Source: an uncultured Colwellia sp. (GTDB lineage: Bacteria; Pseudomonadota; Gammaproteobacteria; Enterobacterales; Alteromonadaceae). From it: a stretch of DNA of 40,342 bases. Location: the NCBI GenBank assembly GCA_913058405.1, contig CAJXRC010000015.1:1-40342 (forward strand), written 5' to 3'. This document shows, one piece after another, positions 9,061 to 40,342 of the stretch; the first letter of the stretch is position 1, and each line of letters begins with the position of its first letter. The position numbers and the translations under genes were made by a program. The notes under the pieces were generated by a model. The model did no database searches, was not told the DNA's origin, and worked only from the letters and a program-made list of their open reading frames with translations.

Positions 9061-9222
9061 TAATACCAACCAGACTAACTAAGTGATCTTTTTAAATGGT
9101 CTAAATAGCCAATAACATCGTTGCTTTCAATCTCAATAGCCAGCTATTGCTCATTCAAGCGCCTTATTATTGAAAATTTATTCTCATTAAAATTTGAACC
9201 ATTAATTAATCTGATTGGTATA
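9061..9222. repeat. Palindromic MITE-like element with TAATACCAA ends
   Basis: Left end TAATACCAACCAGACTAA (9061-9078) is an imperfect inverted copy of the right end TTAATCTGATTGGTATA (9206-9222). A second, inner pair of arms (AATGGTCTAAAT near 9096 and ATTTGAACCATTA near 9191) makes the whole 162-bp segment able to fold into one long hairpin. It encodes nothing. Its ends differ from those of the TATACCC family elsewhere in this window, so it is a separate family. The rest of the 8934-9446 spacer shows no gene, only a nine-G run at 9327-9335. Confidence 0.65.
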
Positions 9223-10304: not shown

Positions 10305-10572
10305 TAATACCGATCGTACTAATTTATTGACCACTTAGCGAGAATTAAAAGGCTTAGAGGCAAGGCAGTGATTGCAGAGAAGGGTTGCTCCCTTGTCAAA
10401 ATCAATGACGCTGAATGTAAGCCTTATAAACTCGTCCTTTGGGAGCTCATTAGCAAACAGATAACATCACAAAAAAAATGAAATATAGAGTAATTATAGT
10501 TAACTCCTTTTGCTTGTTTTAAGCTCGCTATTGTAGATCTAAGTTGTCCAATAAATTAATACGAATGGTATA
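10305..10572. repeat. Inverted-repeat element with shared 53-nt core
   Basis: The left end TACCGATCGTACTAATTTAT and the right end ATAAATTAATACGAATGGTA are inverted copies, matching at about 21 of 26 positions when extended to the TTGACCA/TTGTCCAA inner edge. Inside, AAGGCTTA (10349-10356) pairs with TAAGCCTT (10418-10425). The segment between them (10359-10411) aligns without gaps to the cores of the elements at 13055 and 29602. No open frame of note. It fills most of the 10218-10736 spacer; the remainder holds only the MscS gene's leader. Confidence 0.7.
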
Positions 10573-13054: not shown

Positions 13055-13233
13055 TATACCCATTCCACTTGAAGATGCATGATTCAGCTGGAATTAGAAA
13101 CGCCTTTAGGCAAGGCATTGATTGAAGAGAATAGTTATTCTATAGTCGAAATCAATAAAGCAGCATAAAGCGTTTCTAAACCAGCCCCTTGGGGAAGAAG
13201 ACTGAGCGAGCATCTTCAAGTGGAGCGGGTATA
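13055..13233. repeat. Compact 179-bp inverted-repeat element
   Basis: Terminal inverted repeats match at 22 of 24 bases: TATACCCATTCCACTTGAAG (with ATGC following, 13055-13078) against GCATCTTCAAGTGGAGCGGG (with TATA following, 13210-13233). A second stem, TTAGAAACGC (13094-13103) with GCGTTTCTAA (13170-13179), encloses a core at 13109-13161 that aligns base for base with cores in the elements at 10305 and 29602. This is the shortest full copy. The remainder of the 12940-13426 spacer has no gene that I can support. Confidence 0.8.
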
Positions 13234-14295: not shown

Positions 14296-14564
14296 TATAC
14301 CCAAGCTACTTGAAAATACATGTTTCAGAGCTTGGGTAGGGAACGAATACAAGGCATAATTTTTCATTAATGGTTATTACCTAATGATTAAATAACAACG
14401 CTGCAGTCTTTTTCTACCCGAACGCCCTTCGGGCAAGGCGATAAGCGACCAACTGTGTCGTTATAAAATGAGGATGAGCGATAACCACACCATACATTTT
14501 AAGCCTAGCATTTGGCACGCTTCTCGTATTGCTGAAATCGAGAATTTCCAAGTGGTTTAGGTAT
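14296..14564. repeat. 269-bp inverted-repeat element with TATACCC ends
   Basis: The left end TATACCCAAGCTACTTGAAA and right end TTTCCAAGTGGTTTAGGTAT are imperfect inverted copies; the left arm continues to TTTCAG and the right begins CTGAAA. A perfect 10-bp local stem lies at the left end (TACCCAAGCT 14298-14307 with AGCTTGGGTA 14329-14338), and a tight GCCC-TTC-GGGC hairpin sits inside at 14424-14434. The interior differs from the 53-nt core of other copies, so this is a different subtype with the same ends. No gene was found elsewhere in 14232-14774. Confidence 0.68.
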
Positions 14565-28808: not shown

Positions 28809-29585
28809 TTAGAACATTGCCTTAAAAGATTTCTCTTGCTGAATTTTGCTAAGCATTTTTTCCAAATCATTTTGCAGCGCATCAAAGAGAAAGTTACCCA
28901 TACTTATGCGCTTTACGCCTAATGACTGTAATGAATCAAAATCACTTAACTCTGGCATGCACATAACATTAACGGGCAAGGTGGTGCTATTTACTATGTC
29001 ATTAATTGCTTCTTTTTGAACTAGACAAGGCACAAATAAACCATCTGCGCCTGCAGTTTGATATAACTTGGCGCGCTTTTTCGTTTCGCTCTCTGCCTCA
29101 GTAACTCCAAGTAAAAAGGTATCTGTTCTGACATTAATAAAAAGAGAGTCATTCTCTTTTTTTAATCGAGTAGTGATAGCCGAAAGGTAACCAGCAAAGG
29201 TTTTTTCACTTAGTAAAGTTCGTTGTTCGTTAGTTTTATTGACCTTACTGTCTTCGATATTTATACCAACAACACCAACTTCCGCTAATGCTTTAATATA
29301 AGCCGCAGTTATTTGTGGATCTTCACTAAAACCCGCTTCAATATCGACACTTAGCGGTAATGCACAACAAGCAGCAATACGTTTAACAATAAAAAGTAAC
29401 TCTTCAAATGCCATATGTTCGCCATCAGCATAACCAAGCATTCTGGCAATAGCAGCACTTGAAGTACCCATAGCACTAAAACCTAATTTTTCTGCGGTTT
29501 GGGCACTAGCAACGTCCCAAACATTACACAGTAGCAAGGGAGCAGTTTGTTGATGTAATAAAGTAAATGGCGTTTTTTTCATCAT
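28809..29585 (-). CDS. Isocitrate lyase / PEP mutase family protein
   Basis: A 258-aa cytosolic TIM-barrel enzyme of the PEP mutase/isocitrate lyase superfamily, short form. Features: LLLCNVWDVASAQTAEKLGFSAMGTSSAAIARMLGYADGE (substrate loop), PLSVDIEAGFSEDP (metal-binding acids), VGINIEDS, and INVRTDTFLLG with AGADGLFVPCL. The KKCGH motif of true isocitrate lyase is missing. It probably cleaves or rearranges a small oxoacid or phosphonate; methylisocitrate or oxaloacetate-type activity is possible. The start is one of two adjacent ATGs. A LysR gene is divergent about 420 nt away, with a repeat element in between. Confidence 0.88.
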   Translation of the reverse strand: MMKKTPFTLLHQQTAPLLLCNVWDVASAQTAEKLGFSAMGTSSAAIARMLGYADGEHMAFEELLFIVKRIAACCALPLSVDIEAGFSEDPQITAAYIKALAEVGVVGINIEDSKVNKTNEQRTLLSEKTFAGYLSAITTRLKKENDSLFINVRTDTFLLGVTEAESETKKRAKLYQTAGADGLFVPCLVQKEAINDIVNSTTLPVNVMCMPELSDFDSLQSLGVKRISMGNFLFDALQNDLEKMLSKIQQEKSFKAMF

Positions 29586-29601
29586 TAATCTCTTTGTTGT
29601 T

Positions 29602-29867
29602 GATACCCGCTATCATTCAAAGTGCAGGATTTCAGTGGTAGCTAAAAACGATTTAGGTAAGGCACTTACTTTAGACAATGGTTGTTCAATTGTTCAAATG
29701 AATAACGCAATATAAATCGTTTTTAGCCCCATCAAAGAAGCGCTTGAGCAACACCACTACGTCGTTGCACCTTTTTGTAAGGGAATCACCATTACTACAA
29801 AGGTGCGCCTTGTATTGAAATTACTCAAACACTCTGAAACCTGCATCTTGATTGATAACGGGTATAG
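29602..29867. repeat. 266-bp inverted-repeat element with both core and 3' module
   Basis: The ends GATACCCGCTATCATTCAAA (left, then GTGCAGGATTTCAG) and CTGAAACCTGCATCTTGATT (then GATAACGGGTATA, right) are inverted copies. A perfect 13-bp stem, GCTAAAAACGATT (29641-29653) with AATCGTTTTTAGC (29715-29727), encloses the 53-nt core at 29656-29708 shared with the elements at 10305 and 13055. The 3' part (29731-29867) matches 37831-37966 at 106 of 136 positions without a gap. This copy links the two modules in one element. It fills most of the 29586-30006 spacer. Confidence 0.8.
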
Positions 29868-30006
29868 TTAGGAAGTCTGTCGGTATTTCTTGTGGGATTA
29901 GTTTGCTGTTTGGAGACATTAATAACCAACGATAAAAATCGACTACAATTATAAGCTGTGCTTATAATACAAAAATAAATTCCTTTGATTTAACTGAAAA
30001 TGCACC

Positions 30007-30918
30007 ATGATCAAAAGAGCATTAAAGAATATTAATTTATTACATAGTTTTGAATGTGCAGCTAGGCACCAGAGCTATAGTAAGGCTGCTACTGAGTTAT
30101 GTATTTCCCAAGCAGCCATTAGCCAACAAATGCGTCAACTAGAAGAAAATCTCTCGACTCGGTTATTTTTGCGCAAAGGAAAATCCATGTTGTTAACCCA
30201 ACAGGGAAAAACACTGTTGTTAGGTGCGCAGCATGCGTTCAAGGTGTTAGAGAAAAGTATTAATGAGATAACCGTTGAAGAAATAGCGGGTAGTTTAACC
30301 ATTAGTTCCACCCAAGCTTTTACGACTTTGTGGCTTATGCCAAAACTGAGTAAGTTTTCAGCGCTTTACCCTGATATTAATATTCGTGTCATGTCGTCGC
30401 CTCGATTTGAGGATATTAAAGAACAACACATTGATCTTGCCATCCGATTCGGCCCTCACGTTAAAGAGAATACCGATACATCGCTTAACTGTGAATATTT
30501 TGGTGAAGATCCCGTTTATCCAGTATGTTCCGCTGCATTAGCTAAATCGGTAAACTTTAACGCACCTGAGGATCTACTTAAAACTTGGTTAGTTAGTTTA
30601 GACAATCCTGGCTGCTACGACTGGCCTTCTTGGTTTGAACATACCCATACGCAAGGTTATCAAACTCATCAACAATGGACAGAAGTACACAGCACTGACA
30701 TGGCCATAAATGCGGTATTAAATGGTCATGGTTTTACACTGGCTGCCCGATATTTAATTATTGAACCGCTTGAATCAGGCCAATTGGTGATGCCCGTAAA
30801 TATACCTCACCCAAATGTAGTAAAACGGTATTTTGTTTATGATGAAAACTCGGCAAAGATAGCCCGTTTAAATACTTTTACCGACTGGTTAACGAAAGAA
30901 ATGAACTCGACTAATTAA
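30007..30918 (+). CDS. LysR family regulator, GcvA-like
   Basis: A 303-aa regulator. The N-terminal domain matches the GcvA branch: NINLLHSFECAARHQSYSKAATELCISQAAISQQMRQLEENL, then LFLRKGKSMLLTQQGKTLL. The effector domain has LTISSTQAFTTLWLMPKLSKFSALYPDINIRVMSS and IDLAIRFGP, also typical of GcvA/AmpR-like regulators. The divergent PEP-mutase-like gene is the probable target, though the repeat element inserted between them lengthens the control region unusually. A short hairpin with TATAAGAAG/CTCTTATA follows the stop. Confidence 0.93.
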   Translation: MIKRALKNINLLHSFECAARHQSYSKAATELCISQAAISQQMRQLEENLSTRLFLRKGKSMLLTQQGKTLLLGAQHAFKVLEKSINEITVEEIAGSLTISSTQAFTTLWLMPKLSKFSALYPDINIRVMSSPRFEDIKEQHIDLAIRFGPHVKENTDTSLNCEYFGEDPVYPVCSAALAKSVNFNAPEDLLKTWLVSLDNPGCYDWPSWFEHTHTQGYQTHQQWTEVHSTDMAINAVLNGHGFTLAARYLIIEPLESGQLVMPVNIPHPNVVKRYFVYDENSAKIARLNTFTDWLTKEMNSTN

Positions 30919-37631: not shown

Positions 37632-37966
37632 TATACCCAAGCTCCTTGATAATGCGTATTTCAGACTTACTCAGGTGAGTTAGCACAAGGTATATAAATA
37701 TAGGAGTGCTTATTGTCTTTCAAATTGATGTTACGCAGTGATTGCTTACCTGAGAAACTCCCTACGGGCAGGTTTAAAATGGCCAACTACCGCGTTATTG
37801 TTCAACGCCGTATGTAGTAATTTTAAGCCCATCAAAGAAGCACTTGAGCAACATCACTTCATCGTTGCTGTGATTCATAAGGGAATAACCATTCTTTCAT
37901 CACAGCGCTTTGAATTGAAATGACTCAAGCACTTTGAAACATGCATATTGAATGGTAACAGGTATA
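37632..37966. repeat. 335-bp inverted-repeat element carrying the 3' module
   Basis: The left end TATACCCAAGCTCCTTGATA (then ATGCGTATTTCAGA) and right end TTTGAAACATGCATATTGAA (then TGGTAACAGGTATA) are inverted copies. From 37831 to 37966 it aligns without gaps to 29731-29867. It carries an 8-bp hairpin GCTGTGAT (37867-37874) / ATCACAGC (37899-37906) at exactly the same place as the unrelated-sequence hairpin in the other copy. A 61-codon open frame crosses it (37738-37923); I do not count it as a gene. The remaining spacer (37511-38078) holds the PepSY promoter. Confidence 0.78.
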
Positions 37967-40017: not shown

Positions 40018-40292
40018 AAGTTAGTGTTAAACACTAAACTTAGGTTAGTTAAATAGCGAGTTAAGCAAAAAAAACTCTTCCTGATGTACCCTTTCCCTTT
40101 ACTTACTTCAACCGACTTTATGAAATTAAAAACTAACCTAATACTTAACACATCAACCGATTTAAACTGGTGGATGTGATAATGAATATGCTTAATTTAT
40201 GCCATTAAAAAATTGTCAGCCTTATCATTAGACTATAAATTTGTATAAAGAAATAATAAAATTATTGTAAAAAAACTGGACAGTTTATCGTC
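40018..40292. other. Spacer with no supported gene
   Basis: 275 bases upstream of the fibro-slime gene. It is AT-rich and must contain that gene's promoter. I see no hairpin terminator, repeat end or open frame that I would defend. The contig adapter follows at 40293. Confidence 0.6.
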
Positions 40293-40342
40293 CTGTCTCT
40301 TATACACATCTCCGAGCCCACGAGACCGTACTAGATCTCGTA
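40293..40342 (-). other. Residual Nextera i7 sequencing adapter (reverse orientation)
   Basis: An exact reverse complement of bases 1-50: the Tn5 mosaic end CTGTCTCTTATACACATCT, then the linker CCGAGCCCACGAGAC, the index CGTACTAG and ATCTCGTA. Non-biological. The same i7 index at both ends is consistent with read-through adapters kept by the assembler. Confidence 0.98.

Follow-up and report, generated by a model that had tools for sequence, protein, structure and literature searches.

The covarying hairpin of a Colwellia contig is half of a small mobile repeat related to ERIC, and its pairing suggests selection on a folded single strand

Introduction

Two similar segments of a Colwellia contig raise the question of what is being conserved when the letters of a stem change and its pairing does not. 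The window, by which we mean the whole stretch of DNA analysed (40,342 nucleotides), is one entire contig (C15) of a 4.98-Mb assembly that is 99.85% complete. Segments 29731-29866 and 37831-37966 share 106 of 136 positions, and within them five of the eight base pairs of a short stem differ on both sides, all eight being Watson-Crick in both copies. Identity is 6 of 16 positions in the stem and 100 of 120 in the remainder. The original prediction, whose coordinates, arms and counts were all correct, had also stated that the flanks are more conserved than the stem, that the double changes exceed chance, and that the shape is kept while the letters are free. It read the shape as either a functional RNA or a recognition fold on single-stranded DNA of the REP/IS200 type, served by a Y1 or RAYT transposase.

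Several known systems bear comparison. REPINs consist of two inverted hairpins on opposite strands, so that each strand has its motif-sense hairpin at the 5' side. REP and REPIN sequences, which go with RAYT, are not known to show a target duplication, single-stranded DNA being cleaved next to the hairpin. Integron attC sites have paired core sites GTTRRRY / RYYYAAC and lie by gene cassettes and an integrase. The literature on ERIC is said by the papers that cite it to include Hulton 1991, De Gregorio 2005, and Wilson and Sharp 2006.

By the citations in PMC2229807, ERIC-type repeats have been known since 1990-1991; the same paper also gives a TA target duplication for them. According to the relevant passages of PMC2229807, PMC10969869 and PMC3049150, ERIC within Yersinia mRNA destabilises the upstream mRNA in one orientation, with an RNase E site. 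In the corresponding parts of other reports, stem-loop repeat families including ERIC are listed for V. cholerae and Y. pestis (PMC2267715); MITEPlu5, an ERIC relative of Photorhabdus, resembles CCC-type IS630 ends (PMC6267812); RUP of pneumococcus has an IS630 link (PMC2229807, PMC3049150); and Correia/NEMIS of Neisseria is a structured MITE, the transcript of which has been proposed as a substrate for RNase III (PMC2229807, PMC10969869).

Results

Architecture and copy number of the repeat

The hairpin is half of a small, mobile, dispersed Colwellia repeat, a relative of ERIC from gut bacteria. The "3' module" of the original prediction proved to be half of a larger element, which has a second, oppositely oriented hairpin. 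The element is mostly ~264 bp long with inverted ends TATACCC...GGGTATA. Its body is an inverted pair of oppositely oriented hairpins, each with an internal loop AAGGC / AACG(A/C) and an apical loop of the GGUUAUUCC type. Copy 2 (Table 1), used as a query against its own genome, gave at least 52 matches (40 of 140 candidates were scored), and the end repeat TATACCCGTTACCATTCAAGATGCA occurred 58 times at three mismatches or fewer, against none for the backwards control. A set of 201 distinct full copies was collected from Colwellia genomes, of which 161 are 240-290 nt long (most ~264 nt), 35 are 290-330 nt and five fall below 240 nt. Both ends are exact, TATACCC and GGGTATA, in 144 of the 201; one is exact in 47 and neither in 10.

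Copies of the long class have 47-48 nt more, in the loop of hairpin 1. The insert has been gained or lost in place in two pairs of loci with matching flanks (L381 versus L143 and L339 versus L445). It has small hairpins of its own and was found with more than one stem type. A small central hairpin parts the two large ones, and reads CCC-TNCG-GGG by eye at many loci (L246, L253, L509 and others); both of its loop types, UNCG on one strand and GNA on the opposite one, are known to be extra-stable.

Coordinates of the two copies in the window are collected in Table 1. Copy 1 lies 16 nt from the start of a minus-strand ORF (28809-29585). Its hairpin-1 stretch, scored with a covariance model of hairpin 1 (R1) that was built from 72 copies including this one, reaches 26.9 bits when read on the plus strand (29739-29834), compared with 97.8 bits on the minus strand. 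Rfam gave no matches in the window at the gathering score and weak matches at loose thresholds, with no family for the element, and no tRNA or tmRNA was found there. No terminator-like site was detected in 29500-30050; one promoter-like site was detected, with 2.2 expected by chance.

Table 1. Features of the two repeat copies in the window
Feature	Position	Strand	Remarks
Copy 1, complete two-hairpin element	29602..29866	-	ends GATACCC left, GGGTATA right; intergenic
Hairpin 1 of copy 1	29738..29833	-	model R1, 97.8 bits
Copy 1, 8-bp stem arm GCACCTTT (on +)	29767..29774	-	
Copy 1, opposite 8-bp stem arm AAAGGTGC (on +)	29799..29806	-	
Hairpin 2 of copy 1	29637..29732	+	model R1, 37.5 bits; own-strand G.U bias among copies
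Copy 2	37632..37966	-	divergent left end TATACCCAAGCTCCTTGA and divergent left hairpin; normal right half
Hairpin 1 of copy 2	37838..37933	-	model R1, 97.3 bits on -
Copy 2, stem arm GCTGTGAT (on +)	37867..37874	-	
Copy 2, stem arm ATCACAGC (on +)	37899..37906	-	
Left-half hairpin of copy 2	37665..37760	+	model R1, 32.5 bits
TA target duplication of copy 2, left	37632..37633	.	versus empty site in L312
TA target duplication of copy 2, right	37965..37966	.	versus empty site in L312

Other parts of the window also matched the model. A short element with TATACCC-type ends at 13055-13233 has one R1 match (13090-13183, plus strand, 31.7 bits) and is possibly a one-hairpin, ERIC-like derivative. At 14296-14529 there is an element of the divergent type, with the left end TATACCCAAGCTACTTGAA, R1 matches on both strands (27.6 and 24.9 bits) and CCCTTCGGG between its hairpins. 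Weak hairpin matches were seen at 9094-9188 (28.4 bits) and 10339-10435 (30.5 bits). The contig begins and ends (1-52 and 40291-40342) with an adapter-like sequence, AGATGTGTATAAGAGACAG, the two copies being perfect inverted repeats of each other; we take it to be the Nextera adapter, and contigs C24 and C377 of the same assembly have the same kind of end sequence.

Pairing and covariation

Seventy-two distinct copies were aligned in minus-strand reading (alignment A1). In the 8-bp stem, 95.3% of cells are paired and seven of the eight pairs show double changes, so that the covariation proposed from two copies extends to many. Non-complementary arm positions, the outcome that would have counted against a conserved stem, are uncommon, with 27 non-standard cells (22 other and 5 A.C) among 574 in the stem. 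Over the whole of hairpin 1, 93.9% of 2446 cells pair, compared with 85.7% when the letters of the 3' side were shuffled (0 of 500 shuffles reached the observed value) and 34-49% when the partners were slid by 1-3 columns; double changes are found at 23 of the 34 pairs. Further stem types among the copies are GCAGTGAT/ATCACTGC, CACTTTT/AAAAGTG, GCGCCAA/TTGGCGC and GCGTCAA/TTGACGC. The consensus fold of 72 elements has an energy of -57.4 kcal/mol on the minus strand versus -36.9 kcal/mol on the opposite strand.

Co-substitutions were counted by parsimony on small trees of copies that may recombine. When the stem columns were left out of tree building, the count for the stem was 30 co-substitutions where 8.0 +/- 2.5 were expected (maximum 17 in 2000 randomisations), in agreement with the claim that the double changes exceed chance. 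For the whole hairpin the count was 59 versus 15.3 +/- 3.4 (maximum 28), and 48 of the 59 retain a standard pair. Selection to keep the structure is near certain.

Strand bias of half-changed pairs

Half-changed pairs in double-stranded DNA should be G.T as often as A.C. Since G.U (G.T) is the better tolerated of the two in a folded single strand, a bias between them reveals the strand. Among the 72 copies the hairpin-1 stem has 60 G.U and 5 A.C cells on the minus strand. The equivalent stem of hairpin 2 has 66 G.U and 4 A.C cells on the plus strand, 38 of these G.U cells coming from one pair. Counted as events on a tree of the 161 distinct copies of 240-290 nt (out of 201), the G.U:A.C ratio is 56:13 for the hairpin-1 stem on the minus strand and 33:5 for the hairpin-2 stem on the plus strand. 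Pairing between the end repeats, which served as an internal control for double-stranded recognition, gave 67:52, with no significant bias (p 0.2), and the two stems together (89:18) differ from it at a Fisher p of 1.3e-5. The bias is present on internal branches (15:2 and 14:0) as well as terminal ones (36:10 and 18:5). The other helices covary with a weak wobble bias (P1a 44:32, P1b 21:9, P2out 36:21).

Each hairpin is therefore conserved in single-stranded form, on whichever strand has its 5' end at the nearer end of the element. This counts against a single full-length transcript as the sole selected molecule, and against explaining the data mainly by a symmetric cruciform or by arm-to-arm correction. 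The last of these deserves separate mention, since palindrome correction, in which replication switches template from one arm to the other, would keep the arms complementary with no selection at all. It would give many double changes at once, and a stem less conserved than its flanks suits it as well; but it predicts no strand bias, and the inner stems differ sharply from the ends in this respect, on opposite strands for the two hairpins. We regard it as very unlikely. The pattern of stem letters that change freely while the shape is kept on one strand points instead to preservation of a folded single strand. The original prediction of a conserved shape with free letters is strongly supported, and the strand-specific signal is one that a functional RNA or a single-stranded DNA fold would give.

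The relation to host transcription, the one comparison that could tell RNA from single-stranded DNA, was examined in copies in tandem gene context. On terminal branches, stem breaks numbered 11 in hairpins sense to host transcription versus 20 in antisense ones, which is the direction expected for RNA; the difference is not significant (permutation test on 101 copies, p 0.24). A rough assignment of gene orientation around the 201 copies, from the longest ORF in 600-nt flanks and with orthologous copies included, gave 103 tandem, 48 divergent and 20 convergent contexts; seven copies had no ORF on one side and 23 had flanks that were too short. In the tandem contexts the hairpin-2 side is transcribed first in 66 and the hairpin-1 side in 37.

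Reach of the hairpin beyond Colwellia

Model R1, whose E-values are rough and for which IS630 loci served as the negative control (0 matches in 48771 bases), matched 71 of 295 genomes and 23 of 99 genera order-wide, and 60 of 369 genomes and 47 of 272 genera class-wide. The order-wide matches were aligned by fitting to the model (alignment A2), which leans towards its structure. In 47 of them there are 560 double-change cells versus 173.7 after shuffling (0 of 500 shuffles reached the observed value) and at most 149 after sliding; double changes occur at 33 of the 34 pairs, a count that is weak evidence alone, as 23 of 500 shuffles reach it. A second R1 match in the opposite orientation is present at 20 of 27 loci of the order. 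In distant GC-rich genomes there are similar hairpins that carry CAAGGCGC, a GGTTGTTCC-type loop and GCAACGC, between ends that by eye are unlike TATACCC; of these distant loci, L509/L512, L510/L514 and L513 have two R1 matches each and L515 has one. Similar cores between unrelated ends make the hairpin core look independent of the ends of the element. An exact 18-mer was also found, among the matches listed, in records named Kofleriaceae, Myxococcales and others, which may be chance.

These counts bear on a purely historical account, in which the copies in the window come from old subfamilies and the covariation reflects shared ancestry and block exchange between copies. Stem types do form subfamilies, more than one of them occurs with the 47-48-nt loop insert, and L139 and L439 are separate insertions of different subfamilies in one intergenic region. 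Creating new complementary stems is nevertheless beyond the power of such a history, which also leaves unexplained stem co-substitutions at nearly four times the tree-based null and the order-wide excess of double changes. An explanation on these lines is extremely unlikely. As main causes, palindrome correction and pure subfamily history were both rejected on the excess of co-substitutions and the strand bias.

Mobility

The exact empty site of copy 2 is preserved in another genome (L312 of G330) as ACT-TA-TATCC, which shows that this copy was inserted with a TA duplication. An IS630-family insertion sequence of ~1.1 kb in the genome of the window (contig C196) has ends like those of the repeat and an ORF with an in-frame TGA. 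An intact relative in G017 has the ends TATACCCATCACACTTCAAGATGCA and TATACCCGTGATCAATGAAGGTGCT. Over the first 25 bases, the ends of the former match the MITE consensus at 20 and 19 positions and those of the latter at 21 and 19. The unbroken G017 transposase (L449) matches NF033545 (E 2.4e-67) and also PF13358. Counting distant ones, its relatives were found order-wide in 92 of 394 genomes (31 of 114 genera). In 12 of 30 fetched loci, that of this genome among the 12, the transposase match is bracketed by TATACC...GGTATA ends separated by 900-1400 bp, a count made without a chance control.

The TA duplication and the IS630-like ends fit a DDE transposase acting on double-stranded ends, and mobility is probably conferred by the ends and not by the hairpin. 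The element is very likely an ERIC-like MITE with IS630-type ends. A search for DDE_3, the IS630 transposase, gave no match in 24 of 39 Colwellia genomes, and some of them may therefore be unable to move the repeat today; G032, one of the 24, has at least 21 matches to the repeat.

At each end of the element a hairpin follows immediately inward of the end repeat, and the hairpins might for that reason be part of the recognition site of an IS630-type transposase. However, R1 found no match at E up to 1 in 13 IS630 loci, including the insertion sequence of this genome, which indicates that the IS does not include the hairpins, and a similar paired-hairpin core stands between unrelated ends in distant Gammaproteobacteria. 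Such a role for the hairpins is barely credible.

No match to Y1_Tnp (PF01797) was found in the genome of the window (G000) or in G034, G035, G330 and G331, which also hold copies; a match is present in 27 of 39 Colwellia genomes. The RAYT or Y1 transposase anticipated by the original prediction was therefore not found in this genome, and the ends of the element are IS630-like with a TA target duplication. A REP or REPIN mobilised by Y1/RAYT is not supported by these two observations.

Orthologous sites

Eleven pairs of copies have matching flanks on both sides. One of them, L139/L439, had been considered as a single orthologous copy with a swapped stem, which was ruled out, the pair being two separate insertions. 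In nine of the ten remaining pairs conservation is higher in the element than in either flank; the lone exception is L187/L026, a deleted copy. Copy 1 and its ortholog in G031 (L290) are 97.3% identical over the element (257 of 264), compared with 82.7% in the gene to the left, 88.8% over 700 bases rightward and 89.1% in the right intergenic stretch. Exact insertion junctions were read for L290/L017, L139/L439 and the empty site of copy 2. To the left of the copy-1 ortholog in L290, and directly adjoining it, is a ~45-bp element made of end repeats only (TATACCCAAGTGACTTGAA-type, inverted).

Comparison with ERIC

ERIC (also IRU or RU-1; MITEEc1, MITEPlu5, MITEYpe1), a 127-bp enterobacterial repeat, shares with the Colwellia element the ends TATACCC...GGGTATA, a ATTCRAGWTGCA-type inner end and a TA target duplication. 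Both are dispersed and mostly intergenic, both have a long hairpin whose internal loop is AAGGC / AAC, and in both the structure is preferred on the AAGGC-sense strand. The internal loop, AAGGC-stem-AACGC, is present on the structure-preferred strand, by eye and not exactly in every copy. The two differ in that ERIC is ~127 bp with one central hairpin, whereas the Colwellia element is mostly ~264 bp with two hairpins and a distinct apical loop. The ERIC query sequence matched real copies, of which two were fetched (L227/L228) and 32 aligned. It gave no match in the Colwellia genomes G000 and G013 at E 0.001, and model R1 did not find the two fetched copies.

The 32 aligned ERIC copies fold with -43.1 kcal/mol on the preferred strand versus -16.2 kcal/mol on the other. 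Their G.U:A.C ratio is 114:13 with the structure predicted from the preferred strand, and 39:20, which leans to G.U as well, for the structure of the other strand scored there. On the preferred strand the two fetched copies matched the Rfam family V_AS5 (E ~1e-7) and, weakly, Ysr49 (E 0.056 and 3.1), below the gathering scores.

Discussion

The results suggest that what evolution preserves in this repeat is a folded single strand, probably RNA. The explanation that we consider best, and on balance probable, is an ERIC-like MITE, mobilised through IS630, with hairpins that function within transcripts. Its copies would spread in trans, an IS630-type transposase recognising the double-stranded TATACCC...GGGTATA ends and duplicating TA. 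Between the ends lies the inverted pair of hairpins, each kept, according to the covariation and the wobble bias, as a single strand on the strand that has its 5' end at the near end of the element. If the selected molecule is RNA, the first hairpin made would be the motif-sense one from whichever side transcription enters. This hairpin would fold and be recognised through its internal loop and apical loop, and recognition may set the fate of the carrier transcript, be it stability, processing or tolerance of the insert, as with ERIC in Yersinia mRNAs. The letters of the arms would meanwhile drift through G.U intermediates to compensatory changes.

The main competitor is selection on single-stranded DNA, the 5' half of each strand folding during replication, excision or transfer and being bound by protein as in REPINs. 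Like a REPIN, the element is an inverted hairpin pair with a motif-sense hairpin in the 5' half of each strand. A wobble bias would be expected there too, G.T being tolerated better than A.C; stem breakage does not differ significantly between sense and antisense transcription; and most of the 39 Colwellia genomes have a Y1_Tnp match. Against this, unlike REPIN/RAYT systems, the element has a TA duplication and IS630-type ends, which indicate a DDE enzyme on double-stranded DNA; no Y1_Tnp match was found in this genome or the four other copy-holding genomes named above; and the same strand of the ERIC copies matches an Rfam RNA family. We consider single-stranded DNA unlikely and favour RNA as the selected molecule. 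The original prediction is partly borne out: a kept shape, as a functional RNA or a single-stranded DNA fold would give, is supported, and the REP/IS200 (Y1/RAYT) version is not.

The link between IS630 and ERIC is already known and is not new here. Other IS630-family insertion sequences and MITEs, such as RUP and MITEPlu5, likewise have IS630-like ends and a TA target. The Colwellia element differs from them in core hairpins that were not found in the IS630 loci searched, a similar core occurring also with unrelated ends. Correia/NEMIS repeats differ in their Neisseria hosts and in the RNase concerned. In the literature searched, mostly non-subscription papers, we came across neither a two-hairpin Colwellia element nor a wobble bias of each hairpin on its own strand.

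A broader reading, which we put forward tentatively and hold to be possible though rather doubtful, is that the paired-hairpin core (CAAGGC-stem-apical loop-stem-AACG, once per strand) is a portable, bidirectional RNA module. Such a module would be much older than any one transposon, spread across Gammaproteobacteria by MITEs with unrelated ends, and work from either transcribed side, shielding the host from the insertion or making use of it; ERIC would be a one-hairpin derivative.

ERIC-type repeats are used for strain typing, and what keeps their structure has stayed unclear. Here some 160-200 copies with strand-specific pairing and no significant bias in the end repeats allowed selection on a folded strand to be told from selection on double-stranded DNA ends, and they supply concrete, testable parts, namely the internal loop, the apical loop and the strand. 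If the core is indeed common to elements with unrelated ends, the module, and not the transposon, would be the conserved unit.
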